Part shown: in pieces, positions 21,161-42,113 of the stretch
Layout: the number at the start of each line of letters is the position of its first letter
Position numbering within the stretch: the first letter of the stretch is position 1
Assembly: GCA_021779915.1 (NCBI GenBank)
Contig: JAJXZR010000018.1
Span: 1-42,113, forward strand
DNA: 42,113 nt
Direction of reading: 5' to 3'
Origin: a bacterium
Lineage (GTDB): Bacteria; Patescibacteriota; Minisyncoccia; CAIUEV01
The notes under the pieces: generated by a model
What the model was told of the DNA's origin: nothing
What the model saw: only the letters and a program-made list of their open reading frames with translations
Databases searched by the model: none
Translations under genes and position numbers: made by a program

Positions 21161-22243
21161 TTGTTTCCTATGTTCAACCTATTTAAAACAAAAATAAAAA
21201 AAACTTGGGGATTAAATCTTACTGACAGACATTTGCGAGCTGTTGAAATTGAAGGAACTGGAAAACAGTGGAAAATCAAAAAACTCGGAAAAGTTGAGCT
21301 TCCACCGGGTGTTGTTGAAAACGGAACGATTAAACAGCCGGAGTCCTTCAAGGATTACTTAAACCAATTACAAAAAACTGCTTATCCCTCTTCAATTAGA
21401 TCCCATTTTGTCAACATTAATCTTGCTGAGGAACATGCTTTTATGAGGACTATTCGGATGCCCAAATTAGCTCCCGACGAAATGGAAGAGGCAATTCAAT
21501 GGGAAGCCGAAAGCAATATTCCCCTCTCGATTGACAAAGTTTACCTGTCTTGGGAGGAATTACCAGAAAAAGGAGGAGACAAAATCCCAACTCTTCTTGC
21601 TGCTACGCCCAAAACGGTCATAGATAAGATGATTTCTTCTTTAGAAGAAGCTCGTCTTACACCCGTAACAATTGAACCCGACTCGGTTTCACTGATGAGG
21701 AGCATCCTGGAAACCAACCCGGAATCTTCAAATAATCCGGTTTTAATAGTCAACCTTAAAGAGTTTTATACCCAGATTGTGGTTTTTGACTCTGCCGTTG
21801 TAAGGCTGAGCACAACTTGTGAAACATCCGGACAAGATTTTGACAAATCAATCGCCACAAAGTTCAAAATAGGTATCAAAGAAGCAGAAAAAATCCGAAA
21901 AGAAGTATCCTGGAATGAAAGAAATGATCTAGCAAAACAGCTTCAAGAAGTGGTTGCTTCACCACTTAATAGTTTGATAAAAGAAATAGGTAACGCTATT
22001 TCTTTTTATCAAAACGATCAAGATAAAGACATACAAAATATTATTCTGACAGGAGAAAAAAGAAATAAATGGCCGGGTTTTGATGAATTTTTGGGAAAAG
22101 CTTTGGGTCTTTCAATAAAGTGGCAAAACGGTTTCGATCCAGATAAATGGCCTGCCAAATGCCCCTATGTGACCGAGGGCGAAAAGGAGGAATATAATAT
22201 AGGTATTGGACTTGCTCTAAAAAGTCTAGAAAGTGGATTTTAA
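21161..22243 (+). CDS. pilM: Type IV pilus assembly protein PilM
   Basis: WGLNLTDRHLRAVEIEGTGKQWKI, MPKLAPDEMEEAIQWEAESNIPLSIDKVYLSWEEL, actin-like ATPase fold features. Confidence 0.88.
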   Translation: MFPMFNLFKTKIKKTWGLNLTDRHLRAVEIEGTGKQWKIKKLGKVELPPGVVENGTIKQPESFKDYLNQLQKTAYPSSIRSHFVNINLAEEHAFMRTIRMPKLAPDEMEEAIQWEAESNIPLSIDKVYLSWEELPEKGGDKIPTLLAATPKTVIDKMISSLEEARLTPVTIEPDSVSLMRSILETNPESSNNPVLIVNLKEFYTQIVVFDSAVVRLSTTCETSGQDFDKSIATKFKIGIKEAEKIRKEVSWNERNDLAKQLQEVVASPLNSLIKEIGNAISFYQNDQDKDIQNIILTGEKRNKWPGFDEFLGKALGLSIKWQNGFDPDKWPAKCPYVTEGEKEEYNIGIGLALKSLESGF

Positions 22244-22255
22244 GTTTTTCATGTT

Positions 22256-22918
22256 ATGGAAAATCAAAAAATAGAACAACCAACTTTGACTCAAAAAAAA
22301 ATCATTTCACCCAACCTTCTTCCCAGCGAGAAGAAGGAGATACTGTATTTAGAAATCATCGGGGAAACCGTCAGAAAGGTTTGTCAGATAGGACTTGTTT
22401 TTATGTCGTTATTTTTTATCGTCGGCGGTTTAATTTTGCTAAATATCCAGAAGAATGAAAAGGCCTATACTTTCAAATACGAAAATATTGACAGGCAAAA
22501 GTTGGATGAGTTGAATAAAATTAAAAAAGAAGTGCAAGAAACCAATGGGATCGGAAATATGTTGAATCAAAGTATCAAAAAACAATACAAGTGGAGCGAC
22601 TTTTTATCAAATCTCTCAAAGATCACTCCTGAAGGCGTTGTTCTTCTAAGTATTGAAACGCCTCTGGACAATCCTACCTGGATAACCATAACTGGAGTCG
22701 CCAGAGAGAGAGATTTATTCTTAAAATTCAAAAACGGATTAGACTCTTCCGGATTTTTTACTAAAATTGAATCTCCACTCTCAAATTATGTCGATCCTCT
22801 CAGTCTTGAATTTGAAATTAACGCCCAAGTAAAGAATTGGAATCCCAAATGGGCGGAAGACGCCAAGAAAGCTAAATTAAGCGCCAGGAAAGCGGCAAAT
22901 GATGCAACGGGAGAATAG
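22256..22918 (+). CDS. pilN: PilN-like type IV pilus inner-membrane assembly protein
   Basis: NLLPSEKKE N-terminus + single TM, then WSDFLSNLSKITPEGVVLLSIETP; directly after pilM. Confidence 0.8.
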   Translation: MENQKIEQPTLTQKKIISPNLLPSEKKEILYLEIIGETVRKVCQIGLVFMSLFFIVGGLILLNIQKNEKAYTFKYENIDRQKLDELNKIKKEVQETNGIGNMLNQSIKKQYKWSDFLSNLSKITPEGVVLLSIETPLDNPTWITITGVARERDLFLKFKNGLDSSGFFTKIESPLSNYVDPLSLEFEINAQVKNWNPKWAEDAKKAKLSARKAANDATGE

Positions 22919-26619: not shown

Positions 26620-28074
26620 ATGCCAAACAAAGACACACACCCCAAAAAAAGCGAGAAAGAAACTAATGGAACCGAGACTGCCGAGAAGCAAAAAAGGATG
26701 ATCGAGGAGAAAGCTAAGTCTTTTTGTTGTCCCTTGAGCCAAAAGACTGGGCTTTCTGTCATCAAAGCGCTTTTTATCGCCTTGGTAGTTTTACTTGCCT
26801 TTTCGCTTCTGCGAGGAAGCGGAAGTTTTTTTCATTTTAGAAATCCGCTGTCTCAACTCGATCAATCGCAAAATAAGCCTCTTGACGATAGATCGGGTAA
26901 AAATCAATCCATACCCAAAGATGACCAGCTGACAGTTCCTTCCTCGGCTCAGGCAGAAGAAGACGCTGTCGTTCAAGTAGTTGAAAAATCTTCACCTGCT
27001 GTTGTTAGCATTATTATTTCCAAAGATATGCCTAAAATTCAAAATTTCTTTTTTGATCCCTTTGGCGACAATAGCAACGATCCTTTCGGTTCTCAAGGTT
27101 CCTCTCCTTTTGATCAATTTTTCGGAGGAAATCAAGGTAGTCCAGACAGCCCGGGGAATCAAGGGGGTGGAACCAAAAAGGTGGAAATTGGCGGAGGAAC
27201 TGGTTTTGTAGTTTCTGACGACGGCTTAATTGTTACGAACAAACATGTCGTTGAAGACCAGACAGCTGATTATACGGTTCTTACTAATGATGGAAGGGAA
27301 TACTCCGCGAAAGTTTTAGGCAGAGATCAATCAAACGATGTAGCTGTTATCAAGATTGATCCCGGAAAACCAACCAAAGGCAAAGGGGTTGACAAAATGG
27401 ATACCGTTACTTTGGGTGACTCAGGAACAGTGAAAATCGGTCAGACTGCTATTGCTATCGGGAACGCTTTAGGAGAATTTAGAAATACTGTTTCTAAGGG
27501 AATTATCTCAGGCTTAAGTCGCAATTTGACCGCCGGAGGAATGGGAAGTGCGGAAAATTTGGAACAACTTATCCAAACCGACGCTGCCATTAATCAAGGT
27601 AATTCTGGGGGGCCACTTCTTAATCTCAAGGGCGAAGTAATCGGAATTAATGTAGCTATGGCCGCCGGAGCACAGAATATTGGCTTTTCCATCCCTATTA
27701 ATAGTGTTAAAAACGTAATTGAAAATGTTCAGAAAAATGGAAAAATTATCCAGCCTTTCCTGGGAGTCAGATATATTCCTATTGATTCGACTATCAAGGA
27801 AAAAAATAATCTCCCTTTTGATTATGGAGTTTTGGTTTCTAGAGGAACGAGCCCTGGAGATTTAGCTGTCATTCCAGGATCTCCTGCCGACAAAGCAGGC
27901 ATTGTGGAAAATGACATAATACTTGAGGTAAATGGCGTAAAAGTTGACGAAAAGAATAGTCTTGTTAAAATAGTGTCAGGATTTGAAGTCGGTAAAGAAA
28001 TCGAACTTAAGGTTTGGCATAAGGGTCAAGAAGAAACTATAAAAGTAACTTTAGGAGAATCTCCGAATAGGTAG
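26620..28074 (+). CDS. htrA: HtrA/DegP-type trypsin-like serine protease with PDZ domain
   Basis: TNKHVVED (His), NDVAVIKID (Asp), INQGNSGGPLLN (Ser), C-terminal PDZ GSPADKAGIVENDIILEVNG. Confidence 0.93.
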   Translation: MPNKDTHPKKSEKETNGTETAEKQKRMIEEKAKSFCCPLSQKTGLSVIKALFIALVVLLAFSLLRGSGSFFHFRNPLSQLDQSQNKPLDDRSGKNQSIPKDDQLTVPSSAQAEEDAVVQVVEKSSPAVVSIIISKDMPKIQNFFFDPFGDNSNDPFGSQGSSPFDQFFGGNQGSPDSPGNQGGGTKKVEIGGGTGFVVSDDGLIVTNKHVVEDQTADYTVLTNDGREYSAKVLGRDQSNDVAVIKIDPGKPTKGKGVDKMDTVTLGDSGTVKIGQTAIAIGNALGEFRNTVSKGIISGLSRNLTAGGMGSAENLEQLIQTDAAINQGNSGGPLLNLKGEVIGINVAMAAGAQNIGFSIPINSVKNVIENVQKNGKIIQPFLGVRYIPIDSTIKEKNNLPFDYGVLVSRGTSPGDLAVIPGSPADKAGIVENDIILEVNGVKVDEKNSLVKIVSGFEVGKEIELKVWHKGQEETIKVTLGESPNR

Positions 28075-28137: not shown

Positions 28138-29805
28138 ATGAAAATGAAGGAGATAAAAAATAACACGAGATTGCTAAGTTTTTTGGTATTTCTGTTTGTT
28201 CTTTTTCCCGGTTTAATCTTGATAAAAAGGAGTAGCGCTTTAAGTACTCCTCCTCCAAATACCAATACTTTAACCGCTCCGGTTAATAATAACCAAAATA
28301 ACGCAAATATCGTTCAAAATGGTGGCTATGATGATCTGGACATGGCTATGGACAAAACCATAGGGCAAATAAACAGCTACCTTACCTCTCTTTCTTTAAA
28401 AAATGTATCCGGACCATTTTTTGAAAAAGGAGCCAAGGAAGTTTTGCCTTTCTATTCCAACCCCTTCACTCAATTTGATTTGTCCCTCAACTCTGATAAA
28501 AAAGGATCTCTCAAAAATGGAGGTGTCATTTCTTTAAAAGGCGTTATTAGTTTTGGATCGAGAAGTAAGGACGAGACCCAAAGCTTTCTACTTGATTGTG
28601 AGAAAAAATACGGAAAAGTTAACAAATGTTTAAATTCTGAAATTTATGATATTTCTAAATTTCAAAATCTAGGGGTTTTTGCTCAAGTTTATCGAAAAGA
28701 TGCGAGCAAGGAAGGAGCATTGCTAGGAGATTATTTGGTAGATGAATTCTCCGTCGCCAGCAATCTTAACATTACAGAAAATCAGGACAGGGAATTTCAA
28801 GTTTCTTGGAAAATACCCAACGACGCAAAACCAGGGGATTACTACATAGCTTTTTATCTTAATTCCAACAATAATTTCGACCTCTGGGGTACACCCCTTA
28901 CCGTTTTTTCATATGCCAAAACATTTGATTTCAGTTTAACCCCTCAAGATGAAACAAAACAGTCTATGGGAGTAGAGTTGGACAAGAACAACATTAAGAT
29001 AAACGGGTTGCCATATGTCTACCGAAAGCCGGCTCCCACAATTGTTCCCGGTGAAAATAGGGAAGTAAAAATTGAAATTCCTATCGTTAATTTGAACACA
29101 ACAGACCAGAAAGTTAATGTGACTTACCAACTTTTCCGATGGGGGCAAACCGACCCGAATAATTTGATTTCTTCAAAGGAAGAATCAAAAACTTTTTCTG
29201 CCGGTGAAAAGTCTAACCTATCCTTTTCTTTCAGTCCTGATGAAAAAGAAAGTGTTTATAATCTGAGAATAACAGCTAGCGGAGAAAACAGCAAGTCAAT
29301 CTCTAACGTAAGGTTTGTTATGAAGGACAAAAACAAAGGAATTTTTCGTTTCTTAGGATTCGCCAAAGACCAAGAAGGCAGTTATTCTCCACTATTTTGT
29401 CTTCGAAATGCTTCTTGGGAGGGAATTGCCAAGTCCAAGGTGAATATTACAGTCCTGGATGCTAAAGGAAACAACAAGGGCACTTGGAATGAGGATGCCA
29501 ACATTGGTAGTGAAACTAGATGTTTTGTACCAGACAACCTTAAATTTACCGATAATGCCTGTTCTAAATTGGTAGGCGAAATTTTTGACGAAAACGATAA
29601 TCTCATTCAAAAAGAAGAGATAAATTACCCTTGTGAAGCGTCTAAAAATGCACCTAGTACTTTAGATAATTTAATTTCTTCCGCTTCTTCTTCCGATAAT
29701 GGCACAGGCACGGAGAAAACAAAAGTTTTGTTGATTTTAGGTGCAATATTGCTCGTTTTAATCGGCATTGCCGTTGTTTTAAATAATAAAAAGAACAAAC
29801 AATGA
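28138..29805 (+). CDS. Surface protein A1: signal/TM, beta-rich ectodomain, C-terminal TM + KNKKNKQ tail
   Basis: N- and C-terminal hydrophobic segments; paralogous to 39412-40908. Confidence 0.8.
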   Translation: MKMKEIKNNTRLLSFLVFLFVLFPGLILIKRSSALSTPPPNTNTLTAPVNNNQNNANIVQNGGYDDLDMAMDKTIGQINSYLTSLSLKNVSGPFFEKGAKEVLPFYSNPFTQFDLSLNSDKKGSLKNGGVISLKGVISFGSRSKDETQSFLLDCEKKYGKVNKCLNSEIYDISKFQNLGVFAQVYRKDASKEGALLGDYLVDEFSVASNLNITENQDREFQVSWKIPNDAKPGDYYIAFYLNSNNNFDLWGTPLTVFSYAKTFDFSLTPQDETKQSMGVELDKNNIKINGLPYVYRKPAPTIVPGENREVKIEIPIVNLNTTDQKVNVTYQLFRWGQTDPNNLISSKEESKTFSAGEKSNLSFSFSPDEKESVYNLRITASGENSKSISNVRFVMKDKNKGIFRFLGFAKDQEGSYSPLFCLRNASWEGIAKSKVNITVLDAKGNNKGTWNEDANIGSETRCFVPDNLKFTDNACSKLVGEIFDENDNLIQKEEINYPCEASKNAPSTLDNLISSASSSDNGTGTEKTKVLLILGAILLVLIGIAVVLNNKKNKQ

Positions 29806-32093
29806 AGAAAATTTTTTCAAGAAAAATTAATATTGTACTGACTTTTCTTTTTTTGTGTGTGACATCTGCTTTTGTGTTAACTAAACCAAGCGCGGATGAA
29901 GCGACTACTAATAGCACCTGTAGCTCTCTTACGGGCTTAAACGCGACACCAAGTGGTTCTGGATGTGCTATTCCCGAAATTTTTTCTTCTGATCAAACAA
30001 TCAAAGGTGAAGTTACTTCTACCCTGGATAAAACTGGAGAGCCAGGAAATTACTGCGCTAAATTCAAACTAGGAATAAGTGGTCACCATGATGTGGTTAT
30101 TTTGGAGAAAAGTGAAGTCACGATAGATTCGGACGCGGATCTATTAAAGTGTCAGGAAGTGGCGCAAAGCTTGGAAAAGGCTTATACAGATGGAACGGTT
30201 AAAGTCGCTTCTGTCACAGGTATTGTTCAACCTTTTAGAGAGAATTATTACTATGTAAGAAACTACCCTGAACAAATAACTGTTCCAGGCAAAAACTTTA
30301 ACTTTTTTCATGATTTAAACGCTGACAACAACTATAAATACGATAAAAATTACTACGATTATTTTTATAACAATTATCCTAACAACACCGGCGGAGTATC
30401 AGCTATCCAAAATTTTTGCCGAGTGCATTTAGAGCAAGGGACAAATAAACTTCTTGCTTTCGAAGTCAGGTACAGACCAACTGATACTTCAGCTGGTTAC
30501 GTTTCTGGAAGATATCAAAACATCTCCAAATGCGCCACAATCCCTGTGACTTGGACTTGTAATCACAAAAATGTTTATACTTATGGGTTGAAATATCAGA
30601 TCAATCAAAACGGCAGTTTTCAACCAATAACTGCTACAGAACCTCATAAATGCGAGGAAATGAAATTGAATTTTACTCCCAGCTCAGAATGGTTTCAAAC
30701 TCTCTCAGAAAGCGCTGATAATGCCACAGCTCTCAACAACGTAGTGCCCTTAAGCAGTGATATGTTTATTTCTCCTCCAACCGATATCTTGAGTTGTTCT
30801 GATCAGGCAAATTGTCTTGCTTCTGCCAACAAACAAACAACCGAGGGAAACTCTTGGGGTAAGGGAGCTCAAAAGGTTCCGGCTGGGTTTGTCGACACCA
30901 CTCAAAATTCTATCAATGCCGGCAACGACAGCGGGGTTACTTGCACCAACGGAAAATGCACTTCATTTACCAGCGGAAACCATTTGTTGAATGCAACAAT
31001 TCCTGCCAGCTCTTATTTTGGGGAATGCGGTAACAACACTGCGACTGTCGATTTGCCAGAAGTACAAATTCCTCAAATAACTTCGTCTTCTCAGATTAAT
31101 ATTGTAGATCGTCCACCTACAGTGCAAGTCGGCTTAGGAGGAACCACTCTAAACAAAAACGAAGAGGTTGATGTTACTTGCGACGCCGCCGACCCGGATA
31201 CTTGCTCGGACAAAATTACCAAAATCAAGTGGACCTGTTTTGATTCTAACGGCTTAACCACTAACTGTTATTTCGGTAAAGACGGGATTTGGAAATCCGG
31301 TGAATCAATAGAAGAAATTCCCGAATCCTCCGCTACCAACCCCTATCGGGCAACAGCTAAATTTAAAGTTTCGGCGGATGGAAATTATGCCGTCAGCTGT
31401 GAGGCTTGGGATAACGATAAAATAGCTCAAGATTCAGGTGGATCGAGTGGATCCAGTAGTAGCGTCGGGCTTACTGGGATTAATGTTGGAGGTGTCATTG
31501 CAGCAGAGATGAATTTCTGCGCAGTAATTCCCGACAGCGAGCAAAGTGGCAAAGTGGCCTGTGGAGAAACTGGCAAAGCCAAGTTCAAGGCTTATACCTT
31601 CAATATAGATCCTCAAACCTACAAATGGCAATGTGCAAAGAACAGTGCTATGGACATATCTACCAGTGATAAAAAAGAGTGTACTTATTCCAGTCAAGGA
31701 ACTTTTTCTCCTTCATTAACCATAATTGACAAAGATGGAAAGGAACATGTTTGTACTTCGGCATCGACAAGTGTTAAAATCACCAACACTGCTAAATGTC
31801 AAGTTCTGTCAAGAGTTATCGGATCAAATGACGATTACACTTCCAGTCTTCAGATTCAAGAGGGAACAGATGTGGAATCAATTGTCAAAGCAGAATGTCT
31901 GAAGACAGACGATGTAGCTTGGAGTGCTAACAACGGCAATATTTCTTCCACCGACCAAAACAAATCGGTAGCTAAATTTTCAGTCGCGGGTCAAGGATCA
32001 GTTGATGCTGGAGTAAAGAAAGACGGAAACACAGTGAAATGTGATTCTTCTAGCATTACGATTAAAGCGAAAACTTCCTTTGGGACGAATTAA
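29802..32093 (+). CDS. Surface protein B1: large secreted Cys-rich Ig/PKD-like protein
   Basis: Signal-like N-terminus, ATGA overlap with A1; C-terminal part paralogous to 40905->42113. Confidence 0.8.
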   Translation: MKKIFSRKINIVLTFLFLCVTSAFVLTKPSADEATTNSTCSSLTGLNATPSGSGCAIPEIFSSDQTIKGEVTSTLDKTGEPGNYCAKFKLGISGHHDVVILEKSEVTIDSDADLLKCQEVAQSLEKAYTDGTVKVASVTGIVQPFRENYYYVRNYPEQITVPGKNFNFFHDLNADNNYKYDKNYYDYFYNNYPNNTGGVSAIQNFCRVHLEQGTNKLLAFEVRYRPTDTSAGYVSGRYQNISKCATIPVTWTCNHKNVYTYGLKYQINQNGSFQPITATEPHKCEEMKLNFTPSSEWFQTLSESADNATALNNVVPLSSDMFISPPTDILSCSDQANCLASANKQTTEGNSWGKGAQKVPAGFVDTTQNSINAGNDSGVTCTNGKCTSFTSGNHLLNATIPASSYFGECGNNTATVDLPEVQIPQITSSSQINIVDRPPTVQVGLGGTTLNKNEEVDVTCDAADPDTCSDKITKIKWTCFDSNGLTTNCYFGKDGIWKSGESIEEIPESSATNPYRATAKFKVSADGNYAVSCEAWDNDKIAQDSGGSSGSSSSVGLTGINVGGVIAAEMNFCAVIPDSEQSGKVACGETGKAKFKAYTFNIDPQTYKWQCAKNSAMDISTSDKKECTYSSQGTFSPSLTIIDKDGKEHVCTSASTSVKITNTAKCQVLSRVIGSNDDYTSSLQIQEGTDVESIVKAECLKTDDVAWSANNGNISSTDQNKSVAKFSVAGQGSVDAGVKKDGNTVKCDSSSITIKAKTSFGTN

Positions 32094-32120
32094 AAAATCC
32101 ATAGTTTCAGCCTTGTTAAA

Positions 32121-32663
32121 ATGAAAAAAAATAGCAAAAAGAAGAAAAAAGCGGGTATGACTTTGATTGGAGTTCTGATTGGAATTACTATTCTAACAAT
32201 TGCCTTAGCTGCCCAAATCAGGCTTCTTTCCAACACTCTCAAAAGACAGGCCTACTTAAGAAACTCCATCATAGCCACTAATTTGGCTAGAGAGGGGATT
32301 GAGATTGCCTTCCTTGCTAGAAGTACCATTGGATGGGATGCTCTAAAAACCAGGATTGGCTCAGATTTGTGCACAGACATAGGCAATGTTCAAACTTTGA
32401 AAATAGATGGCGTTACTTGCAATTCCACTACGCTGAATTACGCCGAAAACGATACTTTTAAGGGATTTTACTACGATAACCAGAATATCATTACCGGACT
32501 CGATATTCCAGCTTATTGGAGAGTGATTAATGTGAAAAGTTGTGGACCAGATGAAAACAATATTATCAACGACAATCAGTGCCTGATTTTGAGTACTAAA
32601 GTCGGTTGGGATAAAGAAACTATTTCTCTCGAAAAAAAGATTTATAATTGGTATATACCATAA
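32121..32663 (+). CDS. Prepilin-like minor pilin (PilV-like) lacking Glu5
   Basis: KKKKAG/MTLIGVLIGITILTIALAAQIRLL class III signal-like N-terminus. Confidence 0.75.
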   Translation: MKKNSKKKKKAGMTLIGVLIGITILTIALAAQIRLLSNTLKRQAYLRNSIIATNLAREGIEIAFLARSTIGWDALKTRIGSDLCTDIGNVQTLKIDGVTCNSTTLNYAENDTFKGFYYDNQNIITGLDIPAYWRVINVKSCGPDENNIINDNQCLILSTKVGWDKETISLEKKIYNWYIP

Positions 32664-32696
32664 CTAGTTAAAAGTTAAAAGTCGAAAGTTATAAAA

Positions 32697-33284
32697 ATGA
32701 AAAAAATCTCTGAGAAACAATCTAAAATGCAAAAATCTTTTACTTTGATTGAAATGATCGTTGTGGTGGCTGTCATGGGTCTTATTTTGGGTGGATTGGT
32801 CATTTCTATGAGCCAAATATTAAACGGAGAAATAATGCTCAGTAAAATGCAAGCTATGGAAGAAGAAAGTCGCTATATTATGGATCTTTTCGCTCAGGAT
32901 GCCCAATATAGCGAACTTAATCCCACTTTTAAGCCAGATACTTTCCTTACTGCTGAGAGAATCATTTTTATTCTAACTGACAAAAGAAGCGACGTCCTTT
33001 CGGGAAGTACTTCAACTGTAGAATACAACAGCACTGGAAGCGCTGATAAATACTATTTAACCCGAGCATTATCCAATCCTTCCTTGAATAATTTCAACGA
33101 GATATCGACCCTGAATACCACCCCACTTAAATACAAGCCGACATACAAAGTAAGAAAAGTGACTAATGGGGATGCCGAAAGTTATATAATCAGTATTTCA
33201 CTGGTTTTTGAGGTTCAGACTAAAGGAACTGTTACTATTGTACCAATCGAGACTTCCGTGGTTTCGAGAATTTTTGAGTTTTAA
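32697..33284 (+). CDS. Prepilin N-methylation-motif protein (PilW-like)
   Basis: KMQKS/FTLIEMIVVVAVMGLILGGLVISMSQI. Confidence 0.85.
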   Translation: MKKISEKQSKMQKSFTLIEMIVVVAVMGLILGGLVISMSQILNGEIMLSKMQAMEEESRYIMDLFAQDAQYSELNPTFKPDTFLTAERIIFILTDKRSDVLSGSTSTVEYNSTGSADKYYLTRALSNPSLNNFNEISTLNTTPLKYKPTYKVRKVTNGDAESYIISISLVFEVQTKGTVTIVPIETSVVSRIFEF

Positions 33285-33302
33285 TTAAGTTCAATAATAA
33301 AT

Positions 33303-34409
33303 ATGCGTAAGAAGCAAAAAATAATCCGGGAAAGAAAAGGGGACGCTATAATTCTTTTGTCTGTTGCTATAACCGGCATCGTAATGTTGGTTAGTGTTAT
33401 GGCTATTGAAAAATTAAAGCAATCTACAAAGCTTCAAAACACCCAAAAAATGTCTCTGCAAAACACTTATCAAGCGGAAGAGGGAATCGAATTCAGTCTT
33501 TTTTCTGCCAAAGAAGGGGTTACTAATCTCAATGCCAATAGCACCAATACAAACGCGCCTCTTAACCGTTTTCAGGTTTCCTTATGGGATAATAACAACA
33601 AGTCTGAAGGAGTAACCGCCCTAGAGCAAATTGCCGGCCAAACTACCAAAGACAGATATATCATTGCCAGTAAAAACAAGGTTAGTAATACCAACCAAAA
33701 TACAGACAAAAAGCTCCAAAAATCAGCTTTTTCCAACGTACCTACTCGTTTTTACAATCAAGTTTCTCTGTGGAATAATATGAAAGATGATTGCAACGCG
33801 AAAGACGGACAAAATAACTGTTCCGATATAGATATTTCTCAAAATGATATGAACGAAAGCGATAAAACTTATCAGGTTGTGTCCCGTCTTGTCGATTACC
33901 AAAACAATTGGGGATCGGTTCAATATAGGGTTATTTTGACTTGCACCAATTTAAAATCGGACTGTAGCGTTAAAAATTTGAAAATCAAATGGGAAAATTG
34001 TACTACCGCCTCCAATACTTGCCCCATAACTTGCAATAAATCGCAAGAAATTACCTTTGGGGGGGGAAAAACGGAAACTTCAGGATTAATCCTTGTTTCT
34101 GACTGGTTTACCGTTCCCGACAATCTACAGACTCAAACTGTCGTTTTTGAGTTTTCTCCTGGTAACACAGGCAAACTTTCTGAAATAAAAATCCCTGGCG
34201 ATACTAGTGGCGGTAATAGGTGCGATGAAATTTTTGGAAAGGATACTTTGTCATCTAATTTTTGTAAAATCGATTGCGCTATCGCTCCTGAAAAAAATCC
34301 TGATGTTTGCATAGCGGGAAGCAAAGGTGTGAAAATGTGCAAAGGTTCTACAGCCTTTACTGATCGCAGAGGAGGAATAGTTCGAATTGATGTCAAAAAG
34401 GCAAAATAG
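33303..34409 (+). CDS. PilX/GspK-like pilus-associated protein
   Basis: ERKGDAIILLSVAITGIVMLVSVMAIEKLKQS N-terminal TM, Cys-rich C-terminus, third gene of minor-pilin-like cluster. Confidence 0.65.
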   Translation: MRKKQKIIRERKGDAIILLSVAITGIVMLVSVMAIEKLKQSTKLQNTQKMSLQNTYQAEEGIEFSLFSAKEGVTNLNANSTNTNAPLNRFQVSLWDNNNKSEGVTALEQIAGQTTKDRYIIASKNKVSNTNQNTDKKLQKSAFSNVPTRFYNQVSLWNNMKDDCNAKDGQNNCSDIDISQNDMNESDKTYQVVSRLVDYQNNWGSVQYRVILTCTNLKSDCSVKNLKIKWENCTTASNTCPITCNKSQEITFGGGKTETSGLILVSDWFTVPDNLQTQTVVFEFSPGNTGKLSEIKIPGDTSGGNRCDEIFGKDTLSSNFCKIDCAIAPEKNPDVCIAGSKGVKMCKGSTAFTDRRGGIVRIDVKKAK

Positions 34410-39411: not shown

Positions 39412-40908
39412 ATGCTAACAAAAAAACAAACTCTTTGTTGGGCTTCGCTTGCGGTGGCTGGGTCTTTTTTCTTTTGCGGTTTTTCCAGGGCAGCGGATGT
39501 CCAGTTGAAACCGGGATTTAACGATCAATATGCGCAGTATCTTAACAGCATGCCGGCTCCCACTCCTCTTAATGGGGCGGGTTCTCCCGATATTATGGAA
39601 GTGGTTCCTTCCTACCGGTCGCCTTTTTCCGTTTTAAAAATCGACCTCGCTCCTTCCAAGACTCTTTCCTTTTCGCCGGGAGAAAAAATCGGTCTTGCGG
39701 GGACTTTAAGCTACACTTGGAAAGGTAGCGACAATATGAAAAAGATTCACGATCTTTGCATGGAAAAAGTAAAAGATGAAAAACAGTGCCAGATGCCCCA
39801 GGCTTATGAGATTCCCCAGTTTAATAATTTGGGAGTTTATATCCAAGTCTGGCGAAAAGACGAATTGGCAGATGGAGCTAACAAGGGAGATTTTCTGGTT
39901 GATGAATTTTACGCTCTGGAAAATCAGAACCTTTCCGAAAACGATAAAAAAAACTTTTCTATCAACTGGACAGTACCTAACGAACTGAAAGGGGGAAACT
40001 ATTATTTTTTACTTTATCTCAATCAAGACAAAGCTTTCGACATTCTAGGAACCCCTCTGGTGGTCTTCTCTGAAACTCAAAGATTTGATTTTGAAATAAA
40101 AGACAATGGATCTAGCGGAATAGAACTAGACAAGGACAATATCAAAGTGGGGGGCCAGGACTACGCCTACAGAAGACCAGCCCCCACCGTCAAAGGAAAT
40201 GAAGTCACTGTGGAAATTCCCCTTAAAAACCTGGACAGCACCGACCAGCAGGCTTCTGTCAAATACGAACTCTACCGCTGGGGTAGAACCAATCCCAAAG
40301 ACCTGATTGATTCTAAAGTGGAAAACAAAGTCTTAAAAGCCAATTCCAACGAACCTCTGAAATATACTTTCGCCCCTAATGCCACTGATAGTGTTTATGA
40401 TTTAAAGATCAAGGCCAATACCGCTGGAAGCGAGACTAATTCTTATGTTCGCTTCGTGATGGACGGCAAACACCGGGGGATCTTCCGTTTTCTTTCTTTT
40501 GTTTCAAATAACGGAGCTTACACCCCCATGTTTTGTGTCAGGGACGCCAATTGGTCCGGATCTTTTCAGGGAACGGTGAAACTTACCATGGGAGGCGAAA
40601 AATTTGAACAAGCCGGAACTATCAACGCCGACGACGGAAAGTGTTTTATTCCTAGTAGCAAGTTACAAGTCAAAGGATCCCAATGTCAGACTGTTAAAGC
40701 CGAAATTTTGGACAAGGATGGTAAAATAGTCGATACCAAAGAAGCTTCCGTCAACTGCACGGAAAAAAAAGCCGTCCAAAAAACAGGAACAAATTCAAGT
40801 GCTCCAGTAAAAAACCAGTCCGACAATAATTTGATCTACGCATTTATCTTGGCTATACTTCTCCTAATCGGGGGGGTGGTCATTATTAAAACTAAAAACA
40901 AGAAATGA
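39412..40908 (+). CDS. Surface protein A2, paralog of 28138-29805
   Basis: Shared blocks: NNLGVYIQVWRKDE/QNLGVFAQVYRKDA, GIELDKDNIKVGGQDYAYRRPAPT/GVELDKNNIKINGLPYVYRKPAPT, YELYRWGRTNPKDLIDSK/YQLFRWGQTDPNNLISSK, RFVMDGKHRGIFRFLSF/RFVMKDKNKGIFRFLGF. Confidence 0.9.
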   Translation: MLTKKQTLCWASLAVAGSFFFCGFSRAADVQLKPGFNDQYAQYLNSMPAPTPLNGAGSPDIMEVVPSYRSPFSVLKIDLAPSKTLSFSPGEKIGLAGTLSYTWKGSDNMKKIHDLCMEKVKDEKQCQMPQAYEIPQFNNLGVYIQVWRKDELADGANKGDFLVDEFYALENQNLSENDKKNFSINWTVPNELKGGNYYFLLYLNQDKAFDILGTPLVVFSETQRFDFEIKDNGSSGIELDKDNIKVGGQDYAYRRPAPTVKGNEVTVEIPLKNLDSTDQQASVKYELYRWGRTNPKDLIDSKVENKVLKANSNEPLKYTFAPNATDSVYDLKIKANTAGSETNSYVRFVMDGKHRGIFRFLSFVSNNGAYTPMFCVRDANWSGSFQGTVKLTMGGEKFEQAGTINADDGKCFIPSSKLQVKGSQCQTVKAEILDKDGKIVDTKEASVNCTEKKAVQKTGTNSSAPVKNQSDNNLIYAFILAILLLIGGVVIIKTKNKK

Positions 40909-42113
40909 ACAGAATTAAAAAAATAGGATTCTTCGTTTCTTTGCCTCTGCTGACCATTTTTTCAGCCATTTCTTCTAGCGCACAGGCAGATACAAACCCG
41001 AACCAGACTATTTCAGGAAGTGTGAGTGCAAGTGGAAATTACAGCGTTAATTTGGGAAATTCCAATGTTAACGGTAGTTGGAAGGATAATTGGAAGGGAG
41101 AAGCTTTTGGCAATTATGCTTCAAATGTTTCATTTGAGTTACAAGGGAATACGATTATTTTACACGCGACCAGTTTCTACGGTCTTGTTTTTGATGTGTC
41201 GGTAACTTTTGATGATGATGGAAATATGGTTAGCTATACTTCTTCTACTCCAGAAGCGTTAGTTGATTTTTGCTTTGGAGACAATCCTACCTGTAAAGTT
41301 GATAATTATTCCAAAATAACCCTTCAGACAGCTAAAATTTTAACCTGCTCCTTCAATTGCGATCAAAAAAACAACTACTCTTACAGCATTAATTATCAAG
41401 CCAAAAAAGATAATCAGTACTCTACCATTAATACTCAGAATGCTTACAAGTGTGAGGAAATAAAGGGAATCGTCACTCCTTGTTCTGAATGGTTTGGAAC
41501 ATTAAGCCATAATTGTGCTTACAGAGGAGATGGAAGGGAAAAGATATTCACATTAGACACTATCTCCCCCCCCACCAACCTCTCTGCCTGCGCCGATCAG
41601 ACTTCCTGTCTTTCCACTGGTACGGAATATTCCTTGACTCCCACCACTTTCGGCAAAGGAGTTCAGAAAGTTTCGGCTGATTTTGTTTCTTCGGCTCAGA
41701 ATTCTTTGAATGCAGGAACCGATTCCACTGTGCATTGTTCGGGGGGGCTGTGTACACCTTACTCTAGCGGATCCCACGCTGTTTCCCTGAATATTCCCGA
41801 AACCTCATATTTCGGTTCGTGCCGAGGAGCGGTACAAAGCGAAACAGTGGAAGGGAAAACTATTACCACTCCGGAAGTTAACATCAATACCGCTGAAGCT
41901 AAAATTCCCGGAGGAACCAGCACTCTTGATTTCAACGTCCTAAACCGCGCCCCCTTGGCATCCCTTTCCTTAGATAAAACTAAAGTCGATGTTGGGGACG
42001 AAGTAACCGCTACCTGTGACATCCAAGATCCCGACACCTGCTCGGACAAAATCATCAATGTGAAATGGACTTGCTACAACAGTAAAAATGAAAAAGTGGA
42101 CTGCTATTTTAAT
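40905..42113 (+). CDS. Surface protein B2 (3'-truncated by window end), paralog of 29802-32093
   Basis: Translated directly: MNRIKKIGFFVSLPLLTIFSAISSSAQA... open for 403 codons; DPDTCSDKIINVKWTCYNSKNEKVDCYFN matches B1 DPDTCSDKITKIKWTCFDSNGLTTNCYF; ATGA overlap with A2; absent from ORF track. Confidence 0.92.
   Translation, partial: MNRIKKIGFFVSLPLLTIFSAISSSAQADTNPNQTISGSVSASGNYSVNLGNSNVNGSWKDNWKGEAFGNYASNVSFELQGNTIILHATSFYGLVFDVSVTFDDDGNMVSYTSSTPEALVDFCFGDNPTCKVDNYSKITLQTAKILTCSFNCDQKNNYSYSINYQAKKDNQYSTINTQNAYKCEEIKGIVTPCSEWFGTLSHNCAYRGDGREKIFTLDTISPPTNLSACADQTSCLSTGTEYSLTPTTFGKGVQKVSADFVSSAQNSLNAGTDSTVHCSGGLCTPYSSGSHAVSLNIPETSYFGSCRGAVQSETVEGKTITTPEVNINTAEAKIPGGTSTLDFNVLNRAPLASLSLDKTKVDVGDEVTATCDIQDPDTCSDKIINVKWTCYNSKNEKVDCYFN

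Follow-up and report, generated by a model that had tools for sequence, protein, structure and literature searches.

A coupled pair of putative surface proteins encoded with minor pilins in a member of the Patescibacteria: a candidate tip adhesin distinct from PilY1

Two adjoining genes of an uncultured ultrasmall bacterium (Candidatus Moranbacteria; 1.12-Mb genome, 48 contigs), here called A1 and B1, encode a membrane-anchored protein and a large secreted protein that are well supported as forming one unit, and they are followed directly by genes for PilV-, PilW-, and PilX-like proteins. The explanation that we favor overall, with a probability of about 0.5, is that A docks B at the membrane, that A1-B1 is a tip adhesin other than PilY1 carried on V-W-X, and that the other A-B copies act independently of pili. 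The window is the whole stretch of DNA that was analyzed, all 42,113 nucleotides of contig C5. Its A1-B1 features are the following.

28138..29805, + strand: A1, a type I membrane protein of 555 aa with a signal peptide and a multi-Ig ectodomain
28423..28941, + strand: A1 domain 1 (aa 96-268), MG2-like by a weak, sub-threshold Pfam match; co-diverges with R1 of B
28975..29637, + strand: A1 Ig-like domains 2 and 3 (aa 280-500), from the AlphaFold2 model
29713..29790, + strand: A1 C-terminal transmembrane (TM) anchor (aa 526-551); KK-rich tail NNKKNKQ, no LPXTG
29802..32093, + strand: B1, a secreted, Cys-rich, multi-Ig protein of 763 aa; ATGA overlap with A1
29982..30548, + strand: B1 variable head (aa ~61-249), of a type shared only with the pilin-linked B of G003
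30549..31046, + strand: B1 R1 (aa ~250-415), the conserved N-terminal core; co-diverges with A
31080..31493, + strand: B1 R2 (aa ~427-564), PKD/Ig-like; the stalk begins here
31506..32090, + strand: B1 R3 (aa ~569-763), C-terminal Ig-like stalk domains, found also in third-component proteins

A preliminary description of this DNA had given A1 a signal or TM segment, a beta-rich ectodomain, and a C-terminal TM segment, and had called B1 a large secreted Cys-rich protein whose gene overlaps A1 by ATGA. All of this was borne out. A1 has a signal peptide, its AlphaFold2 model (mean pLDDT, 78) consists of Ig-like sandwiches and a C-terminal helix, and the TM segment lies at aa 526-551. B1 has a signal peptide, 27 Cys residues, and no other TM segment; its model (mean pLDDT, 71) is mostly a beta chain, the head being predicted poorly. 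Neither protein matched a curated Pfam or NCBIfam family above the cut-off, and the Ig, MG2, and PKD matches seen with Pfam were all sub-threshold. A1 is not an LPXTG sortase-anchored protein, its Gram_pos_anchor match reaching 16.8 bits against a 20-bit cut-off and its tail lacking LPXTG. Sequence searches for solved-structure homologues gave none for B and one weak match for A (E=0.19). Fold searches with A1 and B1 were uninformative, returning only generic Ig-type matches with low TM-scores. The likeness to the MG2/Ig domains of alpha-2-macroglobulin-type and integrin leg proteins is that of a sub-threshold sequence match and a generic beta-sandwich (query-normalized TM-scores of 0.1-0.25 for the best whole-chain matches), and A and B lack thioester or catalytic parts.

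The coupling of A to B is a property of the family and extends beyond it. The two genes overlap by 1 to 26 bp in 12 of 13 family pairs, too regularly to be chance, and the remaining pair is separated by 2 bp. At seven loci in other families, in genomes of the class, A and B are fused in one ORF that runs from an A ectodomain through a TM segment, basic residues, and a second signal-peptide-like helix into a B-like region. An A-type ectodomain with a TM segment, followed directly by a secreted multi-Ig B, was the arrangement at the loci found, overlapping or fused in most of them. Sequence divergence tells the same pair apart from the rest of B: identities of A and of R1 correlate across the 13 pairs (Mantel r=0.80, p=0.0001; 0.62, p=0.0002 without G001; p=0.0006 by within-genome permutation), as correlations among related sequences that show shared or separate history, not physical contact. 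By the same measure A did not correlate with R2 or R3 (r=0.04; 13 pairs), nor did R1 with R2 (r=0.04), although the two are contiguous in one gene, whereas R2 and R3 correlate with each other (r=0.80).

R2 (r=0.46, p=0.0009) and R3 (r=0.36, p=0.016) instead resemble the other copies in their own genome. Stalks are homogenized among same-genome paralogues, and B1 and its pilin-linked counterpart in G003 stay outside this process: the linked B1 stalk is 42-44% identical to others, against 78-90% within the homogenized group of the same genome. For that reason we did not favor an arrangement in which all B proteins of one genome share one V-W-X dock. Heads are of a few types or are missing; among pilin-linked copies the present genome and G003 have type 1, G002 has type 2, and G001 has none. 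How independently these parts change is seen most clearly when A2-B2, a second pair in the window, is compared with a pair on contig C39 of G001: A is 78% and R1 82% identical, the head 24%, and R2 43%. Since the head lies between A and R1, A and R1 have been kept together across a segment that is changing fast or being exchanged. Probably, then, A-B is a device for attachment that is built from modules and whose binding end can be exchanged.

Four A copies were found in the genome by targeted searches, each with a B-type sequence beside it and one (A3) with a second B behind. The second pair in the window is as follows.

39412..40908, + strand: A2, A1 paralogue; no prepilins adjoining
40905..42113, + strand: B2, B1 paralogue; cut off by the contig end

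Several B genes have near-identical stalk DNA (up to 99% over 231 bp, 93-96% elsewhere), which is probably why the assembly breaks at B stalks. Orphan B 3' ends lie at the ends of contigs C20 and C38 (L019 4554-5549 and L018 3193-3588; 94% identical in DNA), so the assembly under-counts B copies. The second B behind A3-B3, B4 (L015 1-1977), has no A of its own and carries several CNxNCPYDPDCC-type repeats. Contig C5, at window position 42113, probably adjoins C43 (L016 13018): relatives have GtrA beside a metallo-hydrolase gene and RuvA, and here the order is GtrA, A2-B2, the break, A4-B5, and the hydrolase. The junction would hold a tandem A-B array inserted at the GtrA/hydrolase spot.

Multi-Ig architecture and several copies per genome with near-identical stalk DNA could also be expected of cell-wall coat or S-layer blocks, with A as the anchor and B as an array-forming partner, and the S-layer protein SbsB was one Foldseek match among many. 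We regard this as very improbable. Pfam and NCBIfam searches of A1 and B1 gave no match to SLH or any other known S-layer family, the heads vary greatly from copy to copy, in contrast to a lattice subunit, and relatives of A occur in only 27 of 384 genomes of the class.

Outside the family, B partners are laid out in the same way but have little similarity in sequence, and whole-protein alignments of family B against other B proteins gave only signal-peptide or weak PKD matches. Many of these partners carry the motif W-F-x-x-G-x-x-D-[ST]-P-[PFY], and the bacterial ones also a later C-x-G-x-C-T; D-[ST]-P is present in all five archaeal partners read, and the motif recurs in both domains of life. 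The same order is seen for SPP and C-x-x-G-x-C in family R1, where a profile comparison aligned the second motif in a borderline match (P=0.0025) carried mostly by motif order. From these sequences we hold with moderate confidence that R1 is the family's version of the motif-bearing domain in the B proteins of other families. At their very end, B-type proteins share a short conserved sequence, which reads [FWI][KR]E[VI]xP in other families and K[ED]K[VIM]xxG[NF] in this one (e.g., L172 13534, L058 5238, and L159 8291).

The pilus-type genes of the window, and the protease gene upstream of A1, are the following.

32121..32663, + strand: PilV/GspI-like minor prepilin; N_methyl above cut-off, no Glu5 (GMTLIG)
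32697..33284, + strand: PilW/GspJ-like minor prepilin; N_methyl above cut-off, KSFTLIE with Ser at -1
33303..34409, + strand: PilX/GspK-like protein with a long C-terminal part; no Glu5 (KGDAIILL), no family match
21161..22918, + strand: pilM and pilN, belonging to the second pilus set; in G001, too, they lie upstream of the locus
26620..28074, + strand: HtrA-type protease, directly upstream of A1; a neighbor only, not counted as part of the system

The identification of PilV-, PilW-, and PilX-like genes downstream of B1 in the preliminary description stands, on N_methyl matches for the first two and, for the third, on position, the hydrophobic start KGDAIILLSV..., and the lack of Glu5, as judged by eye. 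So does that of pilM and pilN at 21.2-22.9 kb (PilM_2, 2.9e-31; PilN, 4.4e-5), and contig C36 has in addition a full pilM-N-O-B-T-C-A cluster, its order read by eye from the ORFs. T2SSE ATPases occur at several places in the genome, which encodes pilus assembly machinery. The five genes from A1 to X lie end to end in one orientation, with 27 bp between B1 and V, 33 bp between V and W, and 18 bp between W and X. A terminator scan found none convincing between the five genes, Rfam had no match within 26-42 kb of the window, and the five genes may be co-transcribed. The V-W-X set is the only one in the genome (one PilV match). No FimU/GspH gene was found in the operon, though V, W, and X are adjacent in all four genera examined; an orphan GspH-like gene, recognized by eye, is on contig C46. 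The PilW-like cleavage site (window 32697-32760) has Ser in place of Gly, KSFTL[IV]E, in 4/4 genera. The gene for the HtrA-type protease precedes A1 by 63 bp; one is upstream in G002 and G003 also and is absent there in G001. The protease is a possible processing factor.

A PilY1 homologue was sought and rejected. PF05567 had no match in B1, nor anywhere in the genome at E<=0.1, and Pfam gave no VWA match in A1 or B1, in agreement with the earlier remark that B does not resemble PilY1. The operon could alternatively encode, as V-W-X, the short pseudopilus of a type-II-like secretion system, with B1 as its cargo and not a tip adhesin. NCBIfam matches the PilV-like protein to both GspI and PilV (each below cut-off), and Glu5, which GspK also lacks, is absent from two of the three pilin-type proteins. 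B nevertheless carries a signal peptide itself and faces no second membrane, and a full pilus core with PilT is present, so that this alternative seems very improbable to us. Patescibacterial cells of this kind lack a second membrane. Its absence has been stated for a related lineage (PMC6851277).

The order A-B-PilV-PilW-PilX is kept on one strand, with gaps of at most 82 bp, in all four genera examined (G000-G003); the loci in the other genera are L047 9412-14764, L054 1320-7121, and L050 12442-6344. Identities to the proteins of the window are 48-49% for V, 42-54% for W, and 33-36% for X, and 22-37% and 28-34% for pilin-linked A and B. A third secreted protein with the C-terminal Ig domain of B follows PilX in two of the four genera, G001 and G002 (L047 14805-16790 and L054 7243-8637), and has an unlinked homologue in the present genome (L017 6798-8114). 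A single clade of all pilin-linked A proteins was not resolved in the tree.

Nine of the 13 family pairs have no prepilins beside them, several of the nine being on short contigs with little flank, and nearly all A-B pairs outside the family are likewise without adjoining prepilins. The preliminary description had proposed a tip-adhesin system with A as membrane partner, and had itself reckoned that mostly unlinked pairs would speak against it. The unity of A and B, the lack of PilY1, and the archaeal pilus operons described below uphold part of that proposal, as does the order conserved in four genera. The frequency of unlinked pairs counts against A-B as a class of tip adhesins and restricts the term to A1-B1. 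As a class, A-B is a surface unit of a more general kind, which stands by itself and was recruited once to minor pilins here.

The same counts can be taken further, with A1-B1 also a pilus-independent surface adhesin whose V-W-X neighbor is frozen by general gene-order conservation. We consider this possible though doubtful. Besides the many pairs away from pilus genes, A bears a membrane anchor, and the housekeeping genes around the locus are conserved too; because the flanking pilM/N, rplK, and rplA genes share this conservation, synteny alone is weak evidence. Yet the five genes remain tight and same-strand in 4/4 genera despite the low identities given above (about 48% even for V), the linked stalk is kept apart from unlinked stalks, and independent pilus-operon settings exist in archaea.

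In bacteria, PilV relatives were found in 122 of 286 genomes of the class. The loci read mostly have prepilin peptidase, pilC, and ligA, with no A-B adjoining. Some V-W-X loci have unrelated large secreted proteins: GLUG/PKD proteins in G177 and giant proteins beside pilC in f41 genomes. By Pfam, the giant protein at L093 4012-9999 is of VWA/laminin-G type and the secreted protein in the minor-pilin cluster at L108 108-6371 is also unrelated to A-B; the clusters at L098 1-6357 and L103 2-4438, with large secreted proteins, were read from ORFs only. The neighbor of A is a PilB gene in G214 and in G261, and in G001 it is a double T2SSE ATPase. By a rough count, PilB-type neighbors occur at 3 of about 20 unlinked bacterial loci against about 0.8 expected (binomial p ~0.04), an excess that is only suggestive because we estimated both the background rate and how many loci are independent. 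The double ATPase, in which two T2SSE domains are fused in tandem over about 1010 aa, is found at L126 14619-17654 and L046 3221-6253; in G001 it is directly upstream of an A-B pair.

Relatives of A also occur in two genomes of another class and in 8 of 193 genomes searched around, and including, a Diapherotrites genome. In that genome (L045), A lies among a T2SSE ATPase, T2SSF, VWA, two PKD-type secreted proteins, and, as judged by eye, two pilins and an archaeosortase-like gene, and two relatives (G735 and G736) have a similar pilus-type neighborhood. In three genomes of DPANN archaea, A is therefore in or beside archaeal pilus operons. On a wider reading, which we put forward as tentative but quite possible, A-B would be an unnamed attachment module common to Patescibacteria and DPANN and repeatedly joined to type IV pili as a substitute for PilY1; the dock A would be locked to one B domain, and the binding head and stalk would evolve or be exchanged separately.

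In the explanation that we favor, the C-terminal helix of A would sit in the cytoplasmic membrane with the Ig-like domains projecting outward, and secreted B would dock on A through R1, displaying the fast-changing head before R1 and the exchangeable Ig-domain stalk after it. A1-B1 would be co-transcribed with the only PilV-PilW-PilX set of the genome, in the place that PilY1 has elsewhere. A1 may keep B1 at the membrane beside the minor-pilin priming complex, and B1 may then depart with the V-W-X complex, forming the adhesive tip of a type IV pilus. The remaining A-B copies would act as adhesins on the cell surface, with no pilus involved. The conserved operon, the stalk that stays separate, and the loci in archaea make the pilus-tip location of A1-B1 plausible, at near even odds. 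Against this explanation, A is membrane anchored and should stay behind as the pilus extends, and the fold matches are of generic Ig type.

In Myxococcus, PilY1 and minor pilins make up a priming and tip complex (PMC7541494). Like PilY1, encoded with FimU-PilV-PilW-PilX in Myxococcus xanthus and Pseudomonas, B is a large secreted protein encoded with minor pilins; both have a variable N-terminal end, and multiple copies have been proposed to give tips of different specificity (PMC7541494). Unlike PilY1, B has neither beta-propeller nor VWA domain, it has a membrane-anchored partner, A, and most of its copies are unlinked from pilins. The T4P-2 system of Saccharibacteria is similar: it too is a pilus of Patescibacteria, its candidate adhesin for host binding is linked to minor pilins, and there are two pilus gene sets (PMC12206443). 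The candidate there is PilX2, a minor pilin in which the adhesin domain, an RCC1 beta-propeller, is fused to the pilin, whereas A-B is a separate two-protein unit (PMC12206443). A published census covers archaeal type IV pilus loci whose accessory proteins include VWA and Ig-like types (PMC4858521); in genomes of the Diapherotrites type, homologues of A are located within such loci or next to them. Searching the census by terms turned up nothing on DPANN, Diapherotrites, or PKD proteins, and the A-B unit was not identified there.

Patescibacteria and DPANN archaea are ultrasmall, largely host-dependent groups. Patescibacteria have type IV pili, and in the literature searched an adhesin candidate has been proposed only for Saccharibacteria (PilX2; PMC12206443). 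With its clearly separate pairing part, variable head, and exchangeable stalk, A-B presents concrete targets for the domains that would bind A, the host, and the pilus, and it provides a means of searching further Patescibacteria and DPANN genomes for candidate adhesins.
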